NCBI GenBank assembly: GCA_013151035.1
Contig: JAADJB010000042.1
Span: forward strand, 1-64,000
Direction: 5' to 3'
From: Gammaproteobacteria bacterium
GTDB lineage: Bacteria; Pseudomonadota; Gammaproteobacteria; JAADJB01
DNA length: 64,000 nt
The notes beneath the pieces were generated by a model. The model saw nothing but the letters and a program-made list of their open reading frames with translations. It was not told where the DNA came from and did no database searches. Position 1 is the first letter of the stretch; every line of letters begins with the position of its first letter. Position numbers and translations under genes: made by a program. This document shows positions 1,913 through 14,695 of the stretch, in pieces.

Positions 1913-1934
1913 GGTGCGCAGTGCGCACCCTACC
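1913..1934. repeat. GGTGCG...CGCACC hairpin abutting the cheB stop codon
   Basis: Palindrome GGTGCGCAGTGCGCACC followed by CTACC. Read on the minus strand it begins directly at the cheB stop codon: the last base of that TAG (1934) is the first base of the repeat. It probably acts as the transcription end of the chemotaxis operon, though no U-tract is obvious. Confidence 0.8.
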
Positions 1935-3001
1935 TATTTATGGGCGACAATCATTTCCGGGATTTTATTTAACGCCAGCTCATAATCAACAGCACCCCGC
2001 TTGACAGCCTCCTGCGGCATACCATAGACCACACAGGTCGCTTCATTCTGCGCAATGGTTTTAGCACCGACATCATGCATTTCCTTAAGTCCTCTTGCCC
2101 CATCATCGCCCATACCTGTCATGATAATACCCAGGGCATTAGCTCCTGCATACTTCGAGACCGAACGAAACAGAACATCAACGGAAGGCTTATGACGACT
2201 GACCAAAGGCCCATCCTTGACCTGTACCGTGGCACCAAACTGGGTGGCTTGTAACATCATATGTTTACCCCCGGGAGCAATCAGTACCCTACCGGGAAGC
2301 AAGGGGTCGTTATCCTCTGCCTCCTTAACCTCAACCTTGCATAATTCATTCAAGCGATTGGCAAAGGTATTGGTGAATTTTTCCGGCATATGTTGCACAA
2401 CAAGAATGGGCAAGGTGTTAGCGGGTAGTGCCGTTAATACCAGTTCAAGCGCCTGGGTTCCACCTGTAGAGGCACCGATAGCAATCATGGGCCCTGTTTT
2501 TTGAGCATTACGGCTAGCTGATTTACTCAGCATGACATCGGCAGTCAATTTTGTAGACACCTTGAGAACCGGTGCAATCTTCTTTGCCTTGATACCCGAC
2601 ATATTGGCCTTTGCTGCAACACGAATAGCAGAGACCAATTCCTGTGATGCCTCAGGGAGTTTTGTTTTCAGGTTTGCTTTGGGCTTTGCCACAACATCAA
2701 TAGCCCCGATACTCAATGCCTGCAAAGAGGTCTTCGATCCTTCTTCAGTCAGTGTTGAACACATAACAACCGGCGTAGGTCGTTCTGCCATAATCTTCTT
2801 GAGGAAGGTAATGCCATCCATGCGCGGCATCTCTACATCAAGAATAATGACATCAGGCCAGTTCTTTTCCATCTTTGGCTGGGCAAAGATGGGGTCCTGA
2901 GCAGATCCTATGACCTCAATGCCCGCAACATTTTCGAGTAACTCCGTAAGCACCTTTCTTACTACCGCAGAGTCATCAACAATAAATACTTGTATACCCA
3001 T
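1934..3001 (-). CDS. cheB: Chemotaxis protein-glutamate methylesterase / deamidase CheB
   Basis: Removes methyl groups from receptor glutamates to reset sensitivity, and is switched on by phosphotransfer from CheA. The 355-residue product has an N-terminal receiver domain (residues 3-120, phosphoacceptor D55 in IILDVEMP) and a C-terminal methylesterase domain with serine in GASTGG (S178), histidine in VQHMP (H204) and aspartate in GMGDDGA (299-300). It is the last gene of the chemotaxis operon, separated from cheD by 56 bp holding a hairpin repeat. Its TAG stop overlaps the edge of another hairpin repeat. Confidence 0.96.
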   Translation of the reverse strand: MGIQVFIVDDSAVVRKVLTELLENVAGIEVIGSAQDPIFAQPKMEKNWPDVIILDVEMPRMDGITFLKKIMAERPTPVVMCSTLTEEGSKTSLQALSIGAIDVVAKPKANLKTKLPEASQELVSAIRVAAKANMSGIKAKKIAPVLKVSTKLTADVMLSKSASRNAQKTGPMIAIGASTGGTQALELVLTALPANTLPILVVQHMPEKFTNTFANRLNELCKVEVKEAEDNDPLLPGRVLIAPGGKHMMLQATQFGATVQVKDGPLVSRHKPSVDVLFRSVSKYAGANALGIIMTGMGDDGARGLKEMHDVGAKTIAQNEATCVVYGMPQEAVKRGAVDYELALNKIPEMIVAHK

Positions 3002-3057: not shown

Positions 3058-3615
3058 TTACTTATTCGTTTCAATAAATTTCTGCAATGGCTCATGTTTA
3101 ACCCAGACATCGCCAGTTCCCACATCAAAGGCAATGCGCCTATGCCCCGTCTCTCCAACATGAGCAACGAGCAAGGATATGCTTCTTTCAGACAGGTGAT
3201 TCATAGCTGCCTCGGCATTTCTTGTACCAATCAATTCATCATCTTTCAACCTTGAATTCGTCAACATATTGCTACCGCCAAAGATCTTGGCCTGATAGTC
3301 GGTCAGATGGGTGCCACGTCGAATGGCCTCTCGCTCAAACAGTGCCATTGCCGCATCGGAATAACGCCCATTAAGTTTGGAGTCTTCCCTGCTTACCCCG
3401 ACAAGATTTCTTCTTCCCGGCAAAACAAAGTGGCACATCCCACCAATCTGAAGCACGGGATGCCAGAGTGTAATAGCAATACACGAACCGAGTATTGTAT
3501 GTATCTGGCAATCACCATCTCCGAAAAAAAAACCACCGGGATTAATAAATCGGCTAACACCCTCTTTGCTAATTTCTTTTTCCTTGATTGGAGTGATAAA
3601 TCTCACTACAATCAA
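3058..3615 (-). CDS. cheD: Chemoreceptor glutamine deamidase CheD
   Basis: Deamidates receptor glutamines so that CheR can methylate them. The 185-residue product shows the CheD core: LGSCIAITLWHP with the catalytic cysteine, GGMCHFVLPG with the catalytic histidine, AKIFGGSNM and VGETGHRRIAF. The first in-frame start is a TTG overlapping the cheR stop (TTGA); an internal GTG three codons later is an alternative, and neither has a clear ribosome-binding site, so translation is probably coupled to cheR. The order cheR-cheD-cheB is common in accessory chemotaxis clusters. In some bacteria CheD partners a CheC/CheX phosphatase, but none is present here. Confidence 0.93.
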   Translation of the reverse strand: MIVVRFITPIKEKEISKEGVSRFINPGGFFFGDGDCQIHTILGSCIAITLWHPVLQIGGMCHFVLPGRRNLVGVSREDSKLNGRYSDAAMALFEREAIRRGTHLTDYQAKIFGGSNMLTNSRLKDDELIGTRNAEAAMNHLSERSISLLVAHVGETGHRRIAFDVGTGDVWVKHEPLQKFIETNK

Positions 3616-4427
3616 GCACTTCGAATTTTTCGATAGACGGTTGGAATAACAGTCTCCAGACCATCATGAATACCCTTGAGTGATTCTGAATGCCCAATAA
3701 ATAAATAACCATCCGGATGCATTTTTTCTACCAGTTGTTTAATAATCAATCGTTTGGTGTCCATATCAAAATAAATCAGGACATTACGCAGAAAGATAAT
3801 ATCAAAGATACCGACATCCCCCAATGGTCTTTTCAAGTTAACTGCGGAAAAGCTAACCCTTTGCCTTAATTTTTTATCAATAAGTAAGGTACCTTCCTGT
3901 TCACCCATACCTTTAAGACAGTAAGTGCGTAAATATTCCTTAGGAATCCCATCAATACGATTTTGCAGATAGTGCCCTTGCTGTGCCTTTTCCAGCACCC
4001 TACTGCTAATATCCGAGCCAAATATCTCCCATGGACGCCTCCCCAGACGGTCATCCAACAACATCGCGATACTATAAGCCTCTTCCCCTGTCGATGAGGC
4101 CGCACTCCATACCCTGAAGGTCTTCCTCCCCTGCCAGTTAGCCAGCACCTCTTTTTCCAGAAACTCAAAGTGCTTCGGTTCCCTGAAAAAATAGGTCTCA
4201 TTGGTGGTCAGAAGATCTATCGCAGTCTGTCTCTCTCCACCTTCTGGAGAGGCTATGACCAGATCAAAATATTCCTGAAAGGTAGTCAGAGAATGGTGAC
4301 GCAACCTTTTACTTAAACGAGAAGTAACCAGTGTTTTTTTCTCATCACTCAGATTAATCCCGGCATGATCATAGATAAACGTCCTGAATGAATTAAACTC
4401 ACTATCTGTAATTTTAAATTGAAGCAT
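3612..4427 (-). CDS. cheR: Chemotaxis protein methyltransferase CheR
   Basis: SAM-dependent methylation of receptor glutamates. The 271-residue product has an N-terminal helical domain (about 1-75) and a C-terminal SAM-binding domain with LTTNETYFFREPKHF and RVWSAASSTGEEAYSIAM, both typical of CheR. Its ATG overlaps the stop of the ODP-like gene (TAATG). Three receptors in the same operon end in a KF-x-RF pentapeptide that fits the CheR docking pattern, so this CheR is probably tethered to them. Confidence 0.96.
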   Translation of the reverse strand: MLQFKITDSEFNSFRTFIYDHAGINLSDEKKTLVTSRLSKRLRHHSLTTFQEYFDLVIASPEGGERQTAIDLLTTNETYFFREPKHFEFLEKEVLANWQGRKTFRVWSAASSTGEEAYSIAMLLDDRLGRRPWEIFGSDISSRVLEKAQQGHYLQNRIDGIPKEYLRTYCLKGMGEQEGTLLIDKKLRQRVSFSAVNLKRPLGDVGIFDIIFLRNVLIYFDMDTKRLIIKQLVEKMHPDGYLFIGHSESLKGIHDGLETVIPTVYRKIRSA

Positions 4428-4942
4428 TAGTTCCCCAGAACACCCACTTTTAACTCGGCAAACCAGTTAATAAAACGTTCCACATTGGCGCCACGATAAA
4501 TAGCCCCATGCTGTGGACATAACATATCGATGCGCTTATCCGAAACTCTCTGACACCAGTCATTCTTCGCCTTATTTGAACCCATCCAGCGTTTATGGAA
4601 TAACTCCGCATGTTTTATATGTTCATCAAAATCGACCACATATAGATCATCCATGGTGGGCGGCAACAAGGCGGCACCTATATCACCCGAAAACAACATC
4701 TTTGCTCCAGGATCATACAGATGAAAATTACCGGATGAATGAAGATAATGCGCGGGTACAAATTCCAGATGTCCCTTACCAAACGAGATATCCTTACCAC
4801 CAGGGTCGGTCAAGAGCATTTCATCGCCATTCATTACCAGGTATTCATTGGTATCAATAAGATAATTTTGACGTTCCGGATCCCTGGCAATCACAGCCCA
4901 GCGATGATCACCTTCTTCAAAGATATAATGTAATTTTTTCAT
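4427..4942 (-). CDS. ODP-like (oxygen-binding di-iron protein) metallo-beta-lactamase-fold protein, internally shortened
   Basis: The sequence resembles chemotaxis-associated ODP proteins, flavodiiron-protein relatives without the flavodoxin domain. The N-terminus (IFEEGDHRWAVIARDP, DTNEYLVMNGDEMLLTDPGG) and the C-terminal half (VPAHYLHSSGNFHLYDPG, LFSGDIGAALL, CPQHGAIYRGANVERF) are well conserved. The product is only 171 residues, against about 250 for intact relatives, and residues 48-55 pass straight from DPGGKDIS to FGKGHLEF. The segment that should carry the first metal-binding motif (H-x-[HE]-x-D-H type) is missing, with the reading frame kept. Later ligand candidates (H in PAHYLH, D in SGDIG, H in PQHG) remain. 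It may be a non-catalytic signalling remnant or an in-frame deletion. It overlaps cheR by 1 bp. Confidence 0.8.
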   Translation of the reverse strand: MKKLHYIFEEGDHRWAVIARDPERQNYLIDTNEYLVMNGDEMLLTDPGGKDISFGKGHLEFVPAHYLHSSGNFHLYDPGAKMLFSGDIGAALLPPTMDDLYVVDFDEHIKHAELFHKRWMGSNKAKNDWCQRVSDKRIDMLCPQHGAIYRGANVERFINWFAELKVGVLGN

Positions 4943-4965: not shown

Positions 4966-5532
4966 TTACGCAACTATTTTTTGAACATTAGATATGCGTT
5001 GTTCGACAATAACCATCGCCTGTTCCATCTCACCAATAATAGAATCAAGGGTACCTTTCGCATCACCTCCCACCCGGGACTCAACGCGCGCCAACACCAC
5101 CAGATTCATCCCCAGTCTTGTCATTAAACGCAACTGTCGAGCCGCTGATGCCAGACGTGTACGAGAACGTTCAATGATATCTCGATGCTGCATAAAGCGA
5201 TCAACACCTGAAAATGAATAATCAATACGAGAGAGCCGGCAGGTCTGTTCAATCAATCTGAGGTTGCGTTGCAATTTCAAGTTAAGCGCGACTTCAGAGA
5301 CCGTCGTTGACATCATCCCTTTCATGGACTCCATCATACTGGTGAGTCGTTTACTGAAATCGCGTAACTGTGAACTAACCATCAGGAAACCGGCATCCAT
5401 ACCAGCAACATTTCTGGAGAATAACATCGCATTCATTGATACAACGTAGACCCTGCGAGAATTATCAACAATACCCTTAATCAGTATGTAGATCTCCGTT
5501 ACATCCTGTATGCTCAAATCAGATTTAGACAT
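4966..5532 (-). CDS. Helical chemotaxis-operon protein of unknown function
   Basis: A 188-residue, mostly helical, charge-rich protein without signal peptide or membrane segment. It contains heptad-like stretches (SSQLRDFSKRLTSMMESM near 53-70, ARQLRLMTRLGMNLVVLA near 130-147) reminiscent of a small coiled-coil scaffold, but lacks the receptor hairpin tip motif [19 protein letters not shown] do not recognise a named family. It sits between the haem-type receptor and the ODP-like gene, 23 bp upstream of the latter and on the same strand. A role as adaptor or sensory partner of the ODP-like protein is inference from position only. A start at MSKSDLSI fits the operon spacing. Confidence 0.7.
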   Translation of the reverse strand: MSKSDLSIQDVTEIYILIKGIVDNSRRVYVVSMNAMLFSRNVAGMDAGFLMVSSQLRDFSKRLTSMMESMKGMMSTTVSEVALNLKLQRNLRLIEQTCRLSRIDYSFSGVDRFMQHRDIIERSRTRLASAARQLRLMTRLGMNLVVLARVESRVGGDAKGTLDSIIGEMEQAMVIVEQRISNVQKIVA

Positions 5533-5577: not shown

Positions 5578-7254
5578 TCAAAAACGCTCAAACTTCGACT
5601 CATCGACCTCAGCCCCGTCAACAGCCGGTTGGGATGATCCTGATGAAGCAACAGGGCCAGGTGCTCGTCTTGCCTCGTCATCCATTAGCAGATGAAAGAA
5701 TCCCACTACCCTCTGTAGATTGGCGGACTGTGCCTGCATTTCCTCAGCAGTCGCAGCAAGTTCTTCAGAACTGGCAGCATTTTGCTGAGTGACCTTATCC
5801 AGTTGTTGCATGGCGCTAGTGATTTGACCCACACCACAGGACTGCTCTTCAGAGGCCGCCGCTATCTCCTGCACCAATTCCGCAGTGCGGGTAATATCGG
5901 GAACCATCTTCTCGAGTAAGCCACCGGCTTTTTCAGCAATCTTGGTACTGTTATCGGTCAGCGAACTGATTTCAGCGGCGGCAACCTGACTACGTTCAGC
6001 CAGCTTTCTAACCTCAGCAGCAACCACGGCAAAACCCTTGCCCTGTTCACCCGCTCGTGCTGCCTCAATAGCTGCATTAAGGGCTAACATATTGGTCTGA
6101 TAGGCGATATCTTCAATAACACCAATTCTATCCGCAATCAAAGCCATTACGGTAACGGTTTCTTCAACCGCTTCACCACCCTCAACAGCCGCTTTTGCCG
6201 ACTCACTGGCGATCTTGTCCGTAATTTGAGCGTTCTCACTATTCTGGCTAACCGATGCGCCCATTTGTTCTATTGATGCACTGGTCTGTTCAACACTGGC
6301 CGCTTGCTCACTAGCGGCACCACTCAATGAACCCGCGGTATCACTGACCTGGGATGCAGCAGAGGATATTTGACTCGAGTTATCCTGAATCTGCCGGACC
6401 ACTTCAATCAGTTTTTGCTGCATATTCAGCATTGCCCTATCCAGCTTACCAAATTCATCATTAGAACCAACAGTAATCGGAGTTTGTAAATCCCCATTAG
6501 CAATATTAGCTAGCGTCACCTGGGCAGCATCAAGCCGGACATTTACATTTTTACGGAAACTAAAGAATATGGTAATACAAATTAATGACAGCGAGGCAAC
6601 AAAGATAGCAACAATGGTCCAGCTTATATTAGCGCTTTGTGCCACTGCGTCATCAATATCGACCACAATCTCCAACACCCCTCGCACATCGCCCAGTTTC
6701 CAGTCATTCTTTGGCGTATCGGCTCTTGAGTTATGACAATTCACACAACCTTGTGCAACCATGATGTCAGGAATAGCAACACGAACCACCTGTTTGCCAT
6801 TAATCACACCTTCTTCAACAAACTGCTCTTCGGGATTTTTTGTCAAATAATCCCATGCCTTCTTACCAAAGGCATCCAGTTGTCTTTCTTTTCGATTAGG
6901 AAAAGGATAGCCACTATAAAGACGTAGATCGGTGCCATCCTTCTTTAACAAAGTGCTCAGATCGTGAATAAAGGTAGCCGGCAGGGGGATGGTGTTTTTT
7001 TCAGTGGCATGATTAAACGATGGCTTTATGGATGAACCTGCCAATACCTTTTTAACCACATTGCGGGTGTAATACCCCCTGATGACCTTGAACTGTTTAA
7101 CCGTTTGTACAGCAGAGGCAATGGCATTTCCCTGTGCATTATCGGTACCCAGTTTAGGCACCAGAATTGCCAGCAAGACCGATACTACAATCATAAGAAC
7201 AACAACCGGCATGAGCAATCTAAATCGCACACTTCTATTCTTTAAAAAAACCAT
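5578..7254 (-). CDS. Methyl-accepting chemotaxis protein with periplasmic c-haem (Tll0287-like/DUF3365) sensor domain
   Basis: Chemoreceptor with TM1 near residues 12-35, a periplasmic domain (about 36-205) of the Tll0287-like type carrying the haem-attachment motif CVNCH (170-174, numbered from the chosen start), TM2 near 210-232, HAMP and a signalling hairpin with [21 protein letters not shown]-type tip. It ends in ESKFERF, whose last five residues match the CheR-docking pentapeptide pattern x-[FWYH]-x2-[FWYH]. The start is the ATG at 7254, nine bases after GGAGA; an in-frame TTG lies seven codons upstream. The likely role is sensing of redox state, oxygen or a haem ligand. The gene lies next to two further MCPs and upstream of the ODP-like gene. 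Confidence 0.93.
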
Positions 7255-7286
7255 TAAATTGACTCTCCAGAACAAATTACAAAATA

Positions 7287-9200
7287 TTAAAAACGTCCAA
7301 ACTTCGATTCATCAAGCTCGTCCTCATCAGCCGCAACGACTGCCACCATAGAACGGGAAGACTGAGAGGAAGACACCGGTACATGAGCACGTTTTATATC
7401 ACTCTTCGTAGCCAGGCGAAAGAACCCCACCACCTGCTGTAAATTTGCCGACTGCGTCTGCATCTCCTCAGCGGTTGCTGCAAGTTCTTCAGAGCCCGCT
7501 GCATTTTGTTGCGTCACCTTGTCGAGTTGTTGCATGGCACTATTAATCTGCCCGACACCACTGGACTGCTCCTCCGATGCCGCCGTTATCTCCTGTACTA
7601 ACTCGGCTGTACGGGTAATATCAGGCACCATCTTCTCCAGCAACCCACCCGCCTTTTCTGCCACCTTCACGCTATCACTGGTCAGCGCACCAATTTCTGA
7701 AGCGGCGACCTGACTACGTTCTGCCAGTTTCCTCACCTCAGCGGCAACCACAGCAAAGCCCTTGCCATGCTCACCGGCTCGTGCCGCCTCAATGGCTGCA
7801 TTAAGCGCCAGCATATTGGTCTGGTAGGCAATATCCTCAATAATAGATATCTTCTCCGCAATCTGCGTCATTGCCTGAACAGTTCCTGCAACCGCATCAC
7901 CTCCTTCGCTTGCTGCCGTTGCCGAGTCACTAGCAATTTTGTCTGTAGCCTGAGCATTTTCACTATTCTGGCTGATGGATGCCCCCATCTGCTCAACCGA
8001 AGCACTGGTCTGCTCAACACTAGCAGCCTGTTCACTAGCAGCCTCACTTAATGAACTGGCGGTATCACTAACCTGTGCCGCAGCAGAGGAGATTTGATTC
8101 GAGTTACTCTGAATTTGCTCAACGACCCCAATCAATTTCTGCTGCATATCAATCATTGCGGCATAGACACCCACCCGTTTTCCCTCATCAACAGCACTCA
8201 AATCTGTAGAGAGATCACCCGCCGCAATAGTCTCAGCAAGCACTTTCACTTCCAGTGGATCCGCACCAAGCTGACGTAACACACTGCGCACAACAATAAA
8301 CATCAGCAAGCCAACCACTAATAAAATAACTACCAGCGTAATCGTAAACTGCTGGTGTAATTCAATAGACTTTTTGTTGAACAGGGCATTATTAGTCGCC
8401 AGGACAGCCTTGATCCTGGACTTTAAATCTACCAGTGTATCTTCCATAGAATGCACCGCTACAGTGAAGCTTTTCTGGATAGCTTTGGCAGCGTTCATAT
8501 TTTTTGCCAGTTTGTTAAAATCAGAATGATACTTATTCATTAACTCCGTTATGTTATTAGCATCCGCCGATTTCAAGGCATAATTATTTAACATCGTATT
8601 AAATTCCGCTTGACGTGTTGCCATTCTTTTCACGTATTTATCAGAACCACGCATTAGATAATCCTTTTCATGGCGACGCATCATCAACATCGACACCATT
8701 AAATCATCTTTCTTCAACTTCTTAACCAGGTCTTCAACATCGTGTACTGCCTTCCGCAGTGAACCCCGCAAACCGGACTTGGGATTGAGACCGCTCTCTT
8801 TTTTATTATTGACCAGATCAATAAAACCTCTTTGATAGGCCTCTACTTGCTGATACAACTTTTCAATCTCTTCACGCTGTCCATTATCACGAACCAAATC
8901 TTCAAGCTCTTTTAATGATTTTTTAATTCCAGCAATTTCTTTTCTATGTTTAGCGACATATTTTTCATCACTGCGCAATATAAAGTCTTTTTCTCTACGC
9001 CGCGCCTGTAACATCAAGATAGAAATGCGATCCACTATTTCACCATAATGTACGACACGTTCATAATCCGCTTTCGCCTTATTGGATACCTGCGTTGACT
9101 GCCAATAAGTTAAACCGAGAATAATAAAACCAAGAATGACAAACCCTGTTAAACCAGACAGCTTTTGCTTAAGTGTTAAATGATTGAACCAGCCGTTCAT
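7287..9200 (-). CDS. Methyl-accepting chemotaxis protein with helical bimodular (HBM-like) sensor domain
   Basis: A 637-residue receptor: TM1 near 13-32, a large all-helical periplasmic domain (about 33-282), TM2 near 284-307, HAMP with [20 protein letters not shown], then the signalling hairpin. Two related helix motifs, [16 protein letters not shown] near 67 and [18 protein letters not shown] near 172, are the hallmark of HBM sensors such as McpS, which bind organic acids in two stacked bundles (established for that family). The ligand here is unknown. The C-terminus DESKFGRF carries a KFGRF pentapeptide. A strong AGGAAGGGG site precedes the ATG. Its cytoplasmic half is nearly identical to that of the receptor at 9787-11820, so they are recent paralogues in that region. 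Confidence 0.93.
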
Positions 9201-9270: not shown

Positions 9271-9771
9271 CTATATTTTTGAGATTTCATCAATCGACAA
9301 AATATTCGCGACATCCAGTAGCACCAGCAATTGATCATTGACTTTACCCATGCCACTAATAAAATCCGTGCGAATTTTGGTACCAAAAGAGGGTGCGGGT
9401 TCTATCTCACTTAACAGGATATCGAGCACCTCGTTGACCACATCAACGGTAATACCGACCTCCAGTTTTTGTTCTTCATAGCGAACTTCCAGAATGACAA
9501 TACTGCTACGCTTGGTTCTCTCTGACGGCTGTTCTGCAAAACGTAAGGCAAGATCAATCACTGGCACAACGCTGCCGCGCAGGTTGATTACACCGGCAAT
9601 AAAACCCGGCATCATCGGAACCCGAGTAATTTTCCCATAATCAATAATCTCTTTGATATGAAGTATGTTGATACCATAGACATCTGTATTCAATACAAAG
9701 GTCAGAAACTGAGTAACACTATCACCCGCAATATCATGCCCTACAGAGTGTAGGGCTGTCTGTGTTTGCAT
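9271..9771 (-). CDS. cheW: Chemotaxis coupling protein CheW (copy 1)
   Basis: Adaptor that links receptors to CheA in signalling arrays. About 166 residues forming one CheW domain: FLTFVLNTDVYGINILHIKEI, PMMPGFIAGVINLRGSVVPVIDL and GITVDVVNEVLDI are canonical. The start is taken at the ATG at 9771, seven bases after AGGG; an ATG two codons upstream is too close to that site. It is about half identical to the second CheW at 11864-12385. It lies between two MCP genes, ten or more bases from the upstream receptor's stop. Confidence 0.94.
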   Translation of the reverse strand: MQTQTALHSVGHDIAGDSVTQFLTFVLNTDVYGINILHIKEIIDYGKITRVPMMPGFIAGVINLRGSVVPVIDLALRFAEQPSERTKRSSIVILEVRYEEQKLEVGITVDVVNEVLDILLSEIEPAPSFGTKIRTDFISGMGKVNDQLLVLLDVANILSIDEISKI

Positions 9772-9786
9772 TATCATACCCTGCGC

Positions 9787-11820
9787 CTAAAAACGTTCAA
9801 ATTTCGACTCATCAATAGAACTCCCGTCAGCCATGGCGACTGCCGTCACTGAAGCAGAAGATTCAGATACCTCGGAGGAAGAGACTGCGGCACGAACACC
9901 CTTTGACACGCCATCCATTGCCAGACGGAAAAAGCCAACCACCTGCTGTAGATTCGCTGATTGTGCCTGCATCTCCTCAGCCGTGGCGGCCAGTTGCTCG
10001 GAACCCGCTGCATTCTGCTGGGTAACTTTGTCAAGCTGTTGCATGGCACTATTAATCTGCCCGACACCACTGGACTGCTCCTCCGATGCCGCCGTTATCT
10101 CCTGCACTAACTCGGCTGTGCGAGTAATATCAGGCACCATCTTGTCCAGCAAGGTACCCGCCTTTTCTGCCACCTTCACGCTATCACCGGTCAGTGTACT
10201 GATCTCTGAAGCGGCAACCTGACTACGTTCCGCCAGTTTCCTCACCTCAGCGGCAACCACGGCAAAGCCCTTGCCATGTTCACCGGCTCGTGCCGCCTCA
10301 ATCGCTGCATTAAGCGCCAGCATATTGGTCTGGTAGGCAATATCCTCGATAATAGATATCTTCTCAGCGATCTGTGTCATTGCCCGAACAGTCCCGGCAA
10401 CCGCCTCACCTCCTTCAGTTGCTGCCGTTGCCGAGTCACTGGCAATCTTGTCTGTGGTCTGAGCATTTTCACTATTTTGACTAATGGATGCCCCCATCTG
10501 CTCAACCGAGGCACTGGTCTGTTCAACACTGGCGGCTTGCTCACTGGCGGCCTCACTCAATGAACTAGCGGTATCACTGACCTGTGCCGCAGCAGAGGAG
10601 ATCTGATTCGAGTTACCCTGAATCTGCTCAACCACCTCGATCAATTTCTGCTGCATATTAATCATCGATGCATAGACACCCACCCGTTTTTTATCCTCGA
10701 CATTACTCAAATCTGTAGAGAGATCACCCGCCGCAATAGCCTCGGCAAGCTCCCGAACCTCTACCGGATCTGCGCCCAACTGCTTCATTAAATTACGCAC
10801 CAGATAAATTGAAATACCCACACTCAACAAGGCCGCAATAAGAGTAAATAAAACCTGCGAAAACTTAACGGAGTCACTGGTTTCAAGCAATTGATCACTA
10901 TCACCCTGCATCAGTGCTTCCTGCGATGTCTTCATTGTCTTTAAATACGACAGAATGTTACTGGCCCTGGGAGCCGCCTTGGTACCCAGCCAGTAATTTG
11001 CCTTATTCCAATCTTTGCCCTCTCTTAAGCGAAACATATCCGCTGGCAGACTAGAAAAAGCCTCTCTTGATACCAGTAGTGTCTGCCATTGCTTAAGCTG
11101 ACTAGCAGTTAACAGATTCTGTTCCTTACTAATCTTGGCAACACTGTTGGTATTCACTTCCCATTTAGCTAAAAATTTATCACGAAACCCACTATCCCCG
11201 GAGAGCAGAAAGGCTCGGATATTGGCCAGACCCAAGGCAAATGAACCGCGTGTATCCGCCAGATCCTTGAGCAGTTTTTTACGCGCCGGGGTCGCTGCAA
11301 GCGTTGCCTCCTCATTAATAATGGCAGTAATACTCTTCAATATTTTCCCAGCCACTGGTGCTGCCTGGGTAAGCAACATGTGAATGGAGGGGATATTCTC
11401 AGAGCGCTGAGCAATACCTTCTATCTCTGACTGCGCCTTACGGAATGCCGATAACTCCTGCTTTATTCCCTGCAACGCCTCAACATTCGATGGATCTGTC
11501 CAGTTTTTTGAATAGGTGGTGAAGGTGGCAAGTGATGTATCTATCTCCTGCCATGCCTGTTTTCTTTTTGAGGCAAATAAATCAGCCTTTTTGGGATCAC
11601 TGCCTAATATCATATAGCCACGCAATGCCGCTAAAGAGGAATTAATACCATTAAGCATATCCCGTCCTGCCAGCAGGGTAGGATAGCGTATATCGGTCAG
11701 TCGACTTTGAACGTCACCCAACTCATTAATTTTTAAACGCCCGGCAAAGGTATTAATAACCATCAAAACAATAATGATTGCGAAACCCGAACCTATTTTC
11801 ATGCCTACCGTTAATTTCAT
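9787..11820 (-). CDS. Methyl-accepting chemotaxis protein with long all-helical periplasmic sensor
   Basis: A receptor of 677 residues: TM1 near 8-25, a roughly 300-residue helical periplasmic domain without clear sequence match (probably HBM/4HB-like, with [18 protein letters not shown] as a typical first-helix pattern), TM2 near 320-340, HAMP ([20 protein letters not shown]) and a signalling hairpin with the classical tip. It ends in ESKFERF with a KFERF pentapeptide. The start is the ATG at 11820, six bases after GAGGG; the ATG two codons upstream abuts the site. The ligand cannot be inferred from sequence. Its cytoplasmic module is almost the same as in the 7287-9200 receptor. Confidence 0.92.
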
Positions 11821-11863
11821 GCCCATCCCTCACTATAACAACTTAAATTGACGTTAATATCGA

Positions 11864-12385
11864 TCACCCTTCTTCTCTTTGCATACTGCCCACCATTGAA
11901 AGCTCATCAATCGATAGAATATTTTCAATATCCAGTAAGATAAGAAAATGCCCATCGACCTTTGCCATACCACTAATAAAATTTGTTTGAATCTGGTTCC
12001 CGAGTGCTGGTGGTGGCTCAATCTCACTAGGATGAATATCCAGCACCTCATTAACCATATCAACGGTGACACCAATCTCAATCATCAGGTCATCATTCTT
12101 CACCTCAAGTATGATGATACTGGTACGCTTGGTATGTTCTGTCACCGCACCTGAAAAACGCTGACTCAGGTCAATAACCGGCACCACACTACCCCGCAGA
12201 TTAATAACCCCAGAGATAAAATCAGGGGTCATTGGCACCTCGGTGAGATCACCGTACTCGATAATCTCCTTGATATTGAGTATATCCAGACCATAGGCCT
12301 TACTACTGAGCATAAAGGTAAGATATTGCTCAGCCTCATCCGATTGCGTATCAACACTATTGACGCTATTGACTGCCTGTTGCAT
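11864..12385 (-). CDS. cheW: Chemotaxis coupling protein CheW (copy 2)
   Basis: 173-residue CheW-domain protein with YLTFMLSSKAYGLDILNIKEI, PDFISGVINLRGSVVPVIDLS and GVTVDMVNEVLDIHPSEI. GAGGGAGA precedes the ATG. It is paralogous to the CheW at 9271-9771, and two coupling proteins in one operon are common where several receptors share one CheA. It is separated from cheA by 114 bp containing a hairpin, so it may be expressed at a different level. Confidence 0.94.
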   Translation of the reverse strand: MQQAVNSVNSVDTQSDEAEQYLTFMLSSKAYGLDILNIKEIIEYGDLTEVPMTPDFISGVINLRGSVVPVIDLSQRFSGAVTEHTKRTSIIILEVKNDDLMIEIGVTVDMVNEVLDIHPSEIEPPPALGNQIQTNFISGMAKVDGHFLILLDIENILSIDELSMVGSMQREEG

Positions 12386-12499: not shown

Positions 12500-14695
12500 T
12501 CAATGTATCGCCTTGGCAACACCTGATTGCTTCTGCCCAGAGCTAACAACTCGATTGACCATCTCCGGGATATCAATAATCATTGCCACCTCGCCACTAC
12601 CAAGAATAGTCGCGCCGCTGATTCCTTTTAGATGCTGAAAGACCTTACCCAGGGGTTTAATAACCGTTTGATGTTCACCCAACAACTCATCCACAACAAA
12701 GCCCGCCTTTTTGCCCGCAAACTGCACCACGACAATATTGTCACGATGTTTCTCATCAATCACACGATTCGAACCAAACAGTTCACTCAGGTGCATAAAG
12801 GGCAGGATCTCGCCACGTAAATTGACATAGTTGGCTTGTTCATCCCCGCCGCGTAACGACTCATTGAGTTCAATACACTCATCAACCATATCCAATGGCA
12901 CAATATACTGGGCATCACCCACGCGAACCTGAAAGCCATCAATAATAGCCAGCGTCAGAGGCAATCGAATAGAGATCGTTGTGCCTTTACCCTCTTCACT
13001 CTCAATCTCAATATGTCCCCGCAGAGACTCAATATTTCTGCGCACCACATCCATGCCAACACCACGCCCGGAAAGGTTACTCACCTGATCAGCGGTTGAA
13101 AATCCTGCTTCAAAGATCAGTCGAAAAACTTCCTGATCACTGAGTTGCTGATTTTCTTGAATCAGGCCTTTTTCCAACGCCTTACTGATAATTTTGTCTT
13201 TAGCCAGACCACCGCCATCATCCTTGATCTGTATGACAATACTGCCCGAATCATGGAAGGCATCCAGACTCACTGTCCCTTTAACCGGTTTCCCTGTCCC
13301 AACCCTCTGTTCAGGGGATTCGATACCATGATCAATCGCATTTCGCACCAGGTGCATCAGGGGATCACCAATCTTCTCAATCAATGTCTTGTCGAGTTCG
13401 GTCTCAGCCCCATTGATCTTGAGATCAATATCCTTGCCGGTATCACGACTAACCTCACGCACGACGCGTTTATAACGATTAAAGGTCTCACCAATCTGCA
13501 CCATACGTAACCCGAGAGCAGTATCACGCACCTCTTCGACCAGACGTAATAGATTCTCCATTGCCTCATTGAGATCAGCATCACCCAGCCTGCGTGCATT
13601 AAGCTCGGAGTTAGCAGAACCGATAACCAGCTCACCCACCAGATCAACCAGATTCTCTAGTTTCAGCGCATTAACCCGAATAGTCTGCTGCGTGTTAACC
13701 CGTTGCTGTTTAAGTTCACCTTGTTTCTTGAGTGCGGCATCAACCACCTCCTGTTCCACGACATGCTGTTCAACAGCAACCTTGCCTAGTGGCGGTACCT
13801 TTTGATTACTATCAGCGGTAACCTTATCCGCAAGATGATCCTGATAATTAAGCACATCATCCTTCTCATTTGAGGTGATGGCACCACAGGCAACAAGGAT
13901 ATCACCGATACGCATATCCTCTTCATCCAGCTCCTCAATCATCCTGATGTAAGAATCAATCTGACTATGGGGCGGCAGAATACTAATCTTGCAATCATCC
14001 TGAACGAACTCAAAGACCTCTTCTATGGTGTCTTTATCGGTATCAGGGGCAATCAGTTCAATTTCAAAACCGAGATAACAGTTCTCTGGATCAAAATCAC
14101 GCCATCGAGGCAAGGCATCATCAATAAGACGGATATTATTAATATCACCAATATTGCTGAGATAACCGATAAACGAGGCGGGATCCATACCGTTACGCAG
14201 GGCATTAGGGCCAAAGCGAAGAGAGATGAACCAGTTTTCATTATCAACACATTCAACGCTATTCTTACTCTCTGCTGCTGTCTGAGTAGTCGCTGGAACG
14301 CCTAGATAGGCATTCAATTTATCGACCAGTTCTGCGTCGACCAGCTTTAACTCATCACTCATCCCGTCAGCATCACTCAATCCATTTTCAACCAGATTAT
14401 TAAGATGATCACGACTTAACAAAAAGAGTGAGACCATATCGTCATCAACACTGAGCACACCTTCTCGAACCTTGCCCAGAACGCTCTCAACAATATGAGT
14501 AAAATCGACAATACTGTCTAGCCCAAAGAGACCGGCAGCTCCTTTGATGGTATGAAAGGTACGAAAAAGATCATTAATGCCTTCCAGCGTATCGGCCTCA
14601 TTATCCAGGTCATCCAGATTAAGTAGTGCCTGTTCAGCAACACCGAGAAGATCCTCTGCCTCATCGGCAAAGATTTGCAAACTATCATCACTCAT
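12500..14695 (-). CDS. cheA: Chemotaxis histidine kinase CheA
   Basis: Central kinase of the array; it autophosphorylates and passes phosphate to CheY and CheB. The 731-residue product begins with an HPt domain (H48 in FRTFHTIKGAAG), followed by a less conserved linker/response-regulator-binding region (about 150-320), the dimerisation domain (about 335-400), the HATPase domain with HLVRNAIDHGIE, DDGGGL and GRGVGMDVVR, and a C-terminal CheW-like domain. Its ATG overlaps the STAS gene stop (ATGA). The order cheY-STAS-cheA is compact and translationally coupled. Confidence 0.96.
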   Translation of the reverse strand: MSDDSLQIFADEAEDLLGVAEQALLNLDDLDNEADTLEGINDLFRTFHTIKGAAGLFGLDSIVDFTHIVESVLGKVREGVLSVDDDMVSLFLLSRDHLNNLVENGLSDADGMSDELKLVDAELVDKLNAYLGVPATTQTAAESKNSVECVDNENWFISLRFGPNALRNGMDPASFIGYLSNIGDINNIRLIDDALPRWRDFDPENCYLGFEIELIAPDTDKDTIEEVFEFVQDDCKISILPPHSQIDSYIRMIEELDEEDMRIGDILVACGAITSNEKDDVLNYQDHLADKVTADSNQKVPPLGKVAVEQHVVEQEVVDAALKKQGELKQQRVNTQQTIRVNALKLENLVDLVGELVIGSANSELNARRLGDADLNEAMENLLRLVEEVRDTALGLRMVQIGETFNRYKRVVREVSRDTGKDIDLKINGAETELDKTLIEKIGDPLMHLVRNAIDHGIESPEQRVGTGKPVKGTVSLDAFHDSGSIVIQIKDDGGGLAKDKIISKALEKGLIQENQQLSDQEVFRLIFEAGFSTADQVSNLSGRGVGMDVVRRNIESLRGHIEIESEEGKGTTISIRLPLTLAIIDGFQVRVGDAQYIVPLDMVDECIELNESLRGGDEQANYVNLRGEILPFMHLSELFGSNRVIDEKHRDNIVVVQFAGKKAGFVVDELLGEHQTVIKPLGKVFQHLKGISGATILGSGEVAMIIDIPEMVNRVVSSGQKQSGVAKAIH

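Follow-up and report, generated by a model that had tools for sequence, protein, structure and literature searches.

A unique in-frame deletion in the ODP gene of a gammaproteobacterial chemotaxis operon

ODPs and their neighbours in chemotaxis operons

The ODPs (oxygen-binding di-iron proteins) are known from the Treponema denticola protein TDE2498 and from the structures 6qrq, 6qwo, 6qnm and 6r9n in the PDB. The T. denticola ODP is coupled with the soluble protein TDE2496, which is homologous to receptors but has neither membrane nor sensing modules (PMC7666581). The last (fourth) histidine of flavodiiron proteins is absent from ODPs, as our alignment and an earlier report agree (PMC7785958), and the class C flavodiiron proteins of Synechocystis keep the metallo-beta-lactamase fold and have lost metal binding. 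The closest relative found for the gene described here is the uninterrupted, full-length ODP (246 aa) of a SZUA-229 gammaproteobacterial MAG, referred to below as L002.

In the window, by which we mean the whole stretch of 64,000 nucleotides that was analysed, the gene at 4427-4942 of the reverse strand encodes a protein of 171 aa that matches the ODP family PF19583 with an E-value of 3.7e-41 and 141.6 bits, against a cut-off of 27.2, and no second ODP was found in the genome. The initial annotation had described an ODP-like gene in a chemotaxis operon, a description with which the reading frame, strand, length, family match and neighbouring che genes all agree. The che operon is complete and, all of it on the reverse strand, consists in order of cheA (12500-14695, NCBIfam CheA), cheW (11864-12385), an MCP with a 4HB domain (9787-11826), a second cheW (9271-9777), an MCP with a CHASE3 domain (7287-9200), an MCP with a Tll0287-like sensor domain and a CVNCH haem-c motif (5578-7275; Pfam PF11845 and MCPsignal), a gene of 188 aa (4966-5532), the ODP gene, cheR (3612-4427, Pfam CheR), cheD (3058-3615, Pfam CheD) and cheB (1934-3001, full length in NCBIfam CheB). 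The ODP gene is thus flanked by a receptor-tip gene and by cheR, cheD and cheB, and it resembles known ODPs in its place in a chemotaxis operon with a sensor-less chemoreceptor-like gene adjoining. Its stop codon and the ATG of cheR overlap as TAATG (4425-4429), so translation of cheR is probably coupled to that of the ODP gene.

L002 has the same order of tip protein, ODP, cheR, cheD and cheB, but its intergenic gaps are wider: 279 bp between tip gene and ODP (5721-6001), 61 bp between ODP and cheR (6741-6803) and 275 bp between cheD and cheB (8163-8439), the counterparts in the window being 23 bp, a 1-bp overlap and 56 bp. The genome also holds flagellin genes, and CheW-domain genes on three further contigs. 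The Tll0287-like domain of the MCP at 5578-7275, next to the damaged ODP, is the sole one in the genome, and no MCP with this domain was seen in the L002 stretch; with its CVNCH motif, this MCP might sense redox state or a gas in place of the ODP. Hemerythrin-domain proteins elsewhere in the genome, with two domains at G000:C19:83861-84679 and one at G000:C34:10611-10970, are possible other O2-binding proteins.

The intact 188-aa gene upstream of the ODP belongs to a family of soluble chemoreceptor-tip proteins, or stripped MCPs. The window protein by itself has no Pfam match, while 16 of the 19 members of its family match PF00015, the family matches the window MCPs with an hhalign probability of 97%, and a profile search with it matches solved chemoreceptors in the PDB with an E-value of 2e-10. 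The family has homology to the MCP signalling tip with no membrane or sensor module; for the 188-aa protein, the lack of membrane parts is read solely from its sequence and length. Genes of this family directly precede ODP in more than 50 loci, most of them proteobacterial; the 188-aa protein is the probable cognate partner of the ODP, and the family a probable general one. It is like TDE2496 in being sensor-less, membrane-free and genetically coupled to an ODP, a correspondence drawn from the description of TDE2496 and not from a sequence comparison.

Extent of the gap and the elements that it removes

The 171-aa protein covers only positions 97-194 of the 194 positions of the Pfam ODP profile, and the structures 6qrq and 6qnm align to it in two pieces, at about residues 6-52 and 44-168, which in those proteins are separated by about 70 residues. 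Its N-terminal 52 residues match the ODP N-terminus, and the remainder picks up 73-75 residues later, both against the PDB ODPs and against L002; the parts that align with TDE2498 and the PDB ODPs are its N-terminal 49 and C-terminal 122 residues. At the DNA level, alignment with L002, to whose ODP the protein is 82% identical in the shared part, leaves a single clean in-frame gap of 225 bp, or 75 codons, at about base 4795, after Gly49. The junction (4793-4801, reverse strand), located by this alignment and by the spacing of a G-x-[ED]-I motif, lies at Gly48-Gly49, where GGTGGT is followed by AAG GAT ATC, and there the gene lacks 225 bp that L002 and 78 of 81 relatives possess. That both ends of the protein are conserved and the region between them is skipped with no break of frame had been noticed in the initial annotation, and the alignments with the PDB ODPs and L002 bear this out; the segment put at about 80 codons is indeed missing, but measures 75.

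Gone with this segment is the first metal motif, HQDPD, and the helix-strand block around it. In the L002 model the missing part comprises a helix (53-63), a strand (69-73), the HQDPD loop (76-80), a second helix (79-91), a strand (96-100), a short helix (107-110) and a further strand (117-120), and it takes in 15-16 of the 49 columns that do not vary in full-length ODPs. The lost ligands had been written as H-x-[HE]-x-D-H, which is the flavodiiron form; the first motif is lost as claimed, but the form proper to ODPs is H-Q-D-P-D-[IV], and in our alignment HQDPD is followed by I, V or T.

The second half of the protein keeps its His, Asp and His, namely H68 (LHSSGN), D87 (SGD) and H145 (PQHGA), encoded within 4508-4741 of the reverse strand and all located in invariant columns; we take them to be ligands from their alignment with the flavodiiron pattern, as generally known for that family. 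These candidates are shared with known ODPs, from which the window protein differs in the absence of the 75 residues that include HQDPD. Six elements of the L002 model are absent from the 171-aa protein, which does not have a complete metallo-beta-lactamase fold. Since the metal set is reduced to His68, Asp87 and His145, the product is, to judge from its sequence, very probably unable to build a di-iron site, and the sensing of O2/Fe through ODP to the chemoreceptor-tip partner has probably been lost in this strain.

An AlphaFold2 model of the 171-aa protein has a mean pLDDT of 85.8, falling below 50 at the junction (47-51), and no comparable low-pLDDT segment occurs in the model of the full-length L002 ODP. 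The remaining elements are placed as in ODP (TM 0.84 by query, against 6qrq). The prediction is steered by an alignment of full-length relatives, and its good overall score is therefore no proof that the protein folds.

Uniqueness and age of the deletion

Among the loci compared, HQDPD is present in 108 of 111 distinct ODP-family ORFs, and the three that lack it are the window's own and those of L060 and L076, which start at the end of a contig or close to it and were rejected as sharers of the deletion. When 369 genomes were surveyed in the class, the profile matches of about 100 true ODPs began at position 1-5 and extended to 194. Apart from the window ODP, which alone starts at 97, the exceptions are one ODP at a contig edge, with a start at 20, and one locus whose match is divided over two frames. 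The phylum sample of 399 genomes, overlapping in part with the class survey, agrees with this, and its few partial matches are of other kinds. These partial matches and the split locus (G068) were likewise set aside as sharers, their pattern being different; at G068:C44:68601-69051 one frame carries profile positions 1-51 of the ODP match and another carries 43-152, possibly a frameshifted copy. Close homologues sharing the deletion, as a signalling adaptor would predict, were thus found neither among the 108 ODPs of the compared loci nor in the two genome surveys. The gap in the window ODP is far beyond chance, since 108 other ODP-family ORFs keep the motif and no other surveyed ODP is without the block.

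What remains of the protein is highly conserved. In a 38-sequence alignment, of which the window protein is itself one row, all 32 of the invariant columns that remain are intact in it, and in a separate count over 97 outgroups none of 35 near-invariant columns is violated. The dN/dS of the window ODP against L002 is 0.056, and cheR, cheD, cheB and cheW range from 0.025 to 0.112; the ratio of the window branch to the L002 branch is 0.82 for ODP and 0.68-1.24 for the neighbouring genes, the latter computed with few outgroups (one for cheD). An old decay under relaxed selection was rejected, as neither dN/dS nor the branch ratio shows any. With 77 non-synonymous sites unchanged, the neutral time comes out at no more than about 3-6% of the branch, a bound which assumes that the deletion ended constraint and is rough because synonymous distances are near saturation; if the deletion did end function, the event would fall within roughly the last 3-6% of the lineage's branch. 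The intact remainder and the low dN/dS fit equally an artefact or a continued function of the truncated protein. The gene is a genuine ODP gene, and its in-frame deletion is unique, clean and probably very recent.

Origin of the deletion and competing explanations

Two G-x-[ED]-I motifs, one after DPGG and the other after PDxG, are separated in 78 of 81 distinct relatives by exactly 75 codons, a spacing equal to the size of the deletion. In L002, one exact direct repeat of at least 8 bp occurs between the two ends, the 8-bp GGAAATTT at an offset of 225, and in 76 of the 81 relatives the exact in-register runs are of just 2-6 bases, the repeats being short and imperfect. A long direct repeat is absent from the deletion ends, where there is short microhomology only. 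Slippage between the G-x-[ED]-I motifs would explain both the size of the deletion and the preserved frame; it is a fitting rather than a proven mechanism, because the run is of 2-6 bases in most relatives.

The reading that we favour, with moderate confidence, is that replication slippage between two short quasi-repeats has very recently deleted 225 bp, in frame, from the genome's only ODP gene. Replication would have slipped between the codons of the two conserved motifs, removing 225 bp and automatically keeping the frame. Helix 1, the strand and loop that bear the HQDPD ligands, helix 2, the short helix and two further strands would have gone at once, the di-iron site would no longer be buildable, O2/Fe sensing through ODP to the tip partner would be lost, and the remaining che operon, including cheR, would still be translatable because the frame is kept.

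The main rival to a recent deletion is that the assembly is in error or that the contig represents a minority strain; the gene of the population would then be full length and the contig would join across the 225 bp. This is a possibility to be taken seriously, if a clearly less probable one: the assembly consists of 54 contigs and the intact state of all else is what an artefact predicts, whereas the sequence common to the two ends in L002 is 8 bp, under usual assembly word sizes, and the lost piece is left over on no other contig, a query with the L002 protein matching only the two flanking pieces in the assembly. The ten other window proteins checked have no unexplained internal gaps, a result by which general gene breakage across the window was also rejected.

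It is improbable that the gene encodes a metal-free adaptor, in which the truncated ODP would keep its partner-binding surface and signal constitutively or structurally with no iron. The retained part is under strong constraint, the gene of the tip partner is intact and adjacent, and deletion of ODP in T. denticola alters the order of CheA within the array (PMC7666581), so the effect of ODP might not need the metal; cyanobacterial flavodiiron relatives with no metal ligands also exist (PMC7785958). However, the class C proteins lost metal binding through substitutions and have a complete fold; here a core structural block is gone and the junction is modelled at very low confidence, and H68, D87 and H145 are kept, though a metal-free protein would have no reason to keep them. 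An adaptor would also predict a conserved truncated lineage, and since the deletion is common to no other genome examined, recent loss is favoured. Likewise improbable is a version in which the 171-aa protein works as an adaptor independent of metal, fixing the state of the tip partner or the CheA array, a sensor turned into a structural part. A null allele, in frame only because a frameshift or stop would cut cheR translation, is very improbable, since, for all the TAATG overlap, it overlaps with recent slippage, does not explain the retention of every invariant residue, and meets a 61-bp ODP-cheR gap in the closest relative.

The initial annotation had left the choice between a new type of adaptor and a recent loss of sensing; the occurrence in one genome, the intact invariant residues and the slippage-compatible ends favour recent loss, and the adaptor finds no comparative support. 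Most likely the gene lost the segment very recently and in frame (or was misassembled), and a new kind of signalling protein is less likely. If real, the deletion would be a natural snapshot of the loss of a sensor from an otherwise intact chemotaxis system, with slippage as its likely molecular route, and would provide a ready test of a metal-free structural role for ODP in the array. Additionally, the upstream partner family makes the pairing of ODP and receptor testable across many bacteria.
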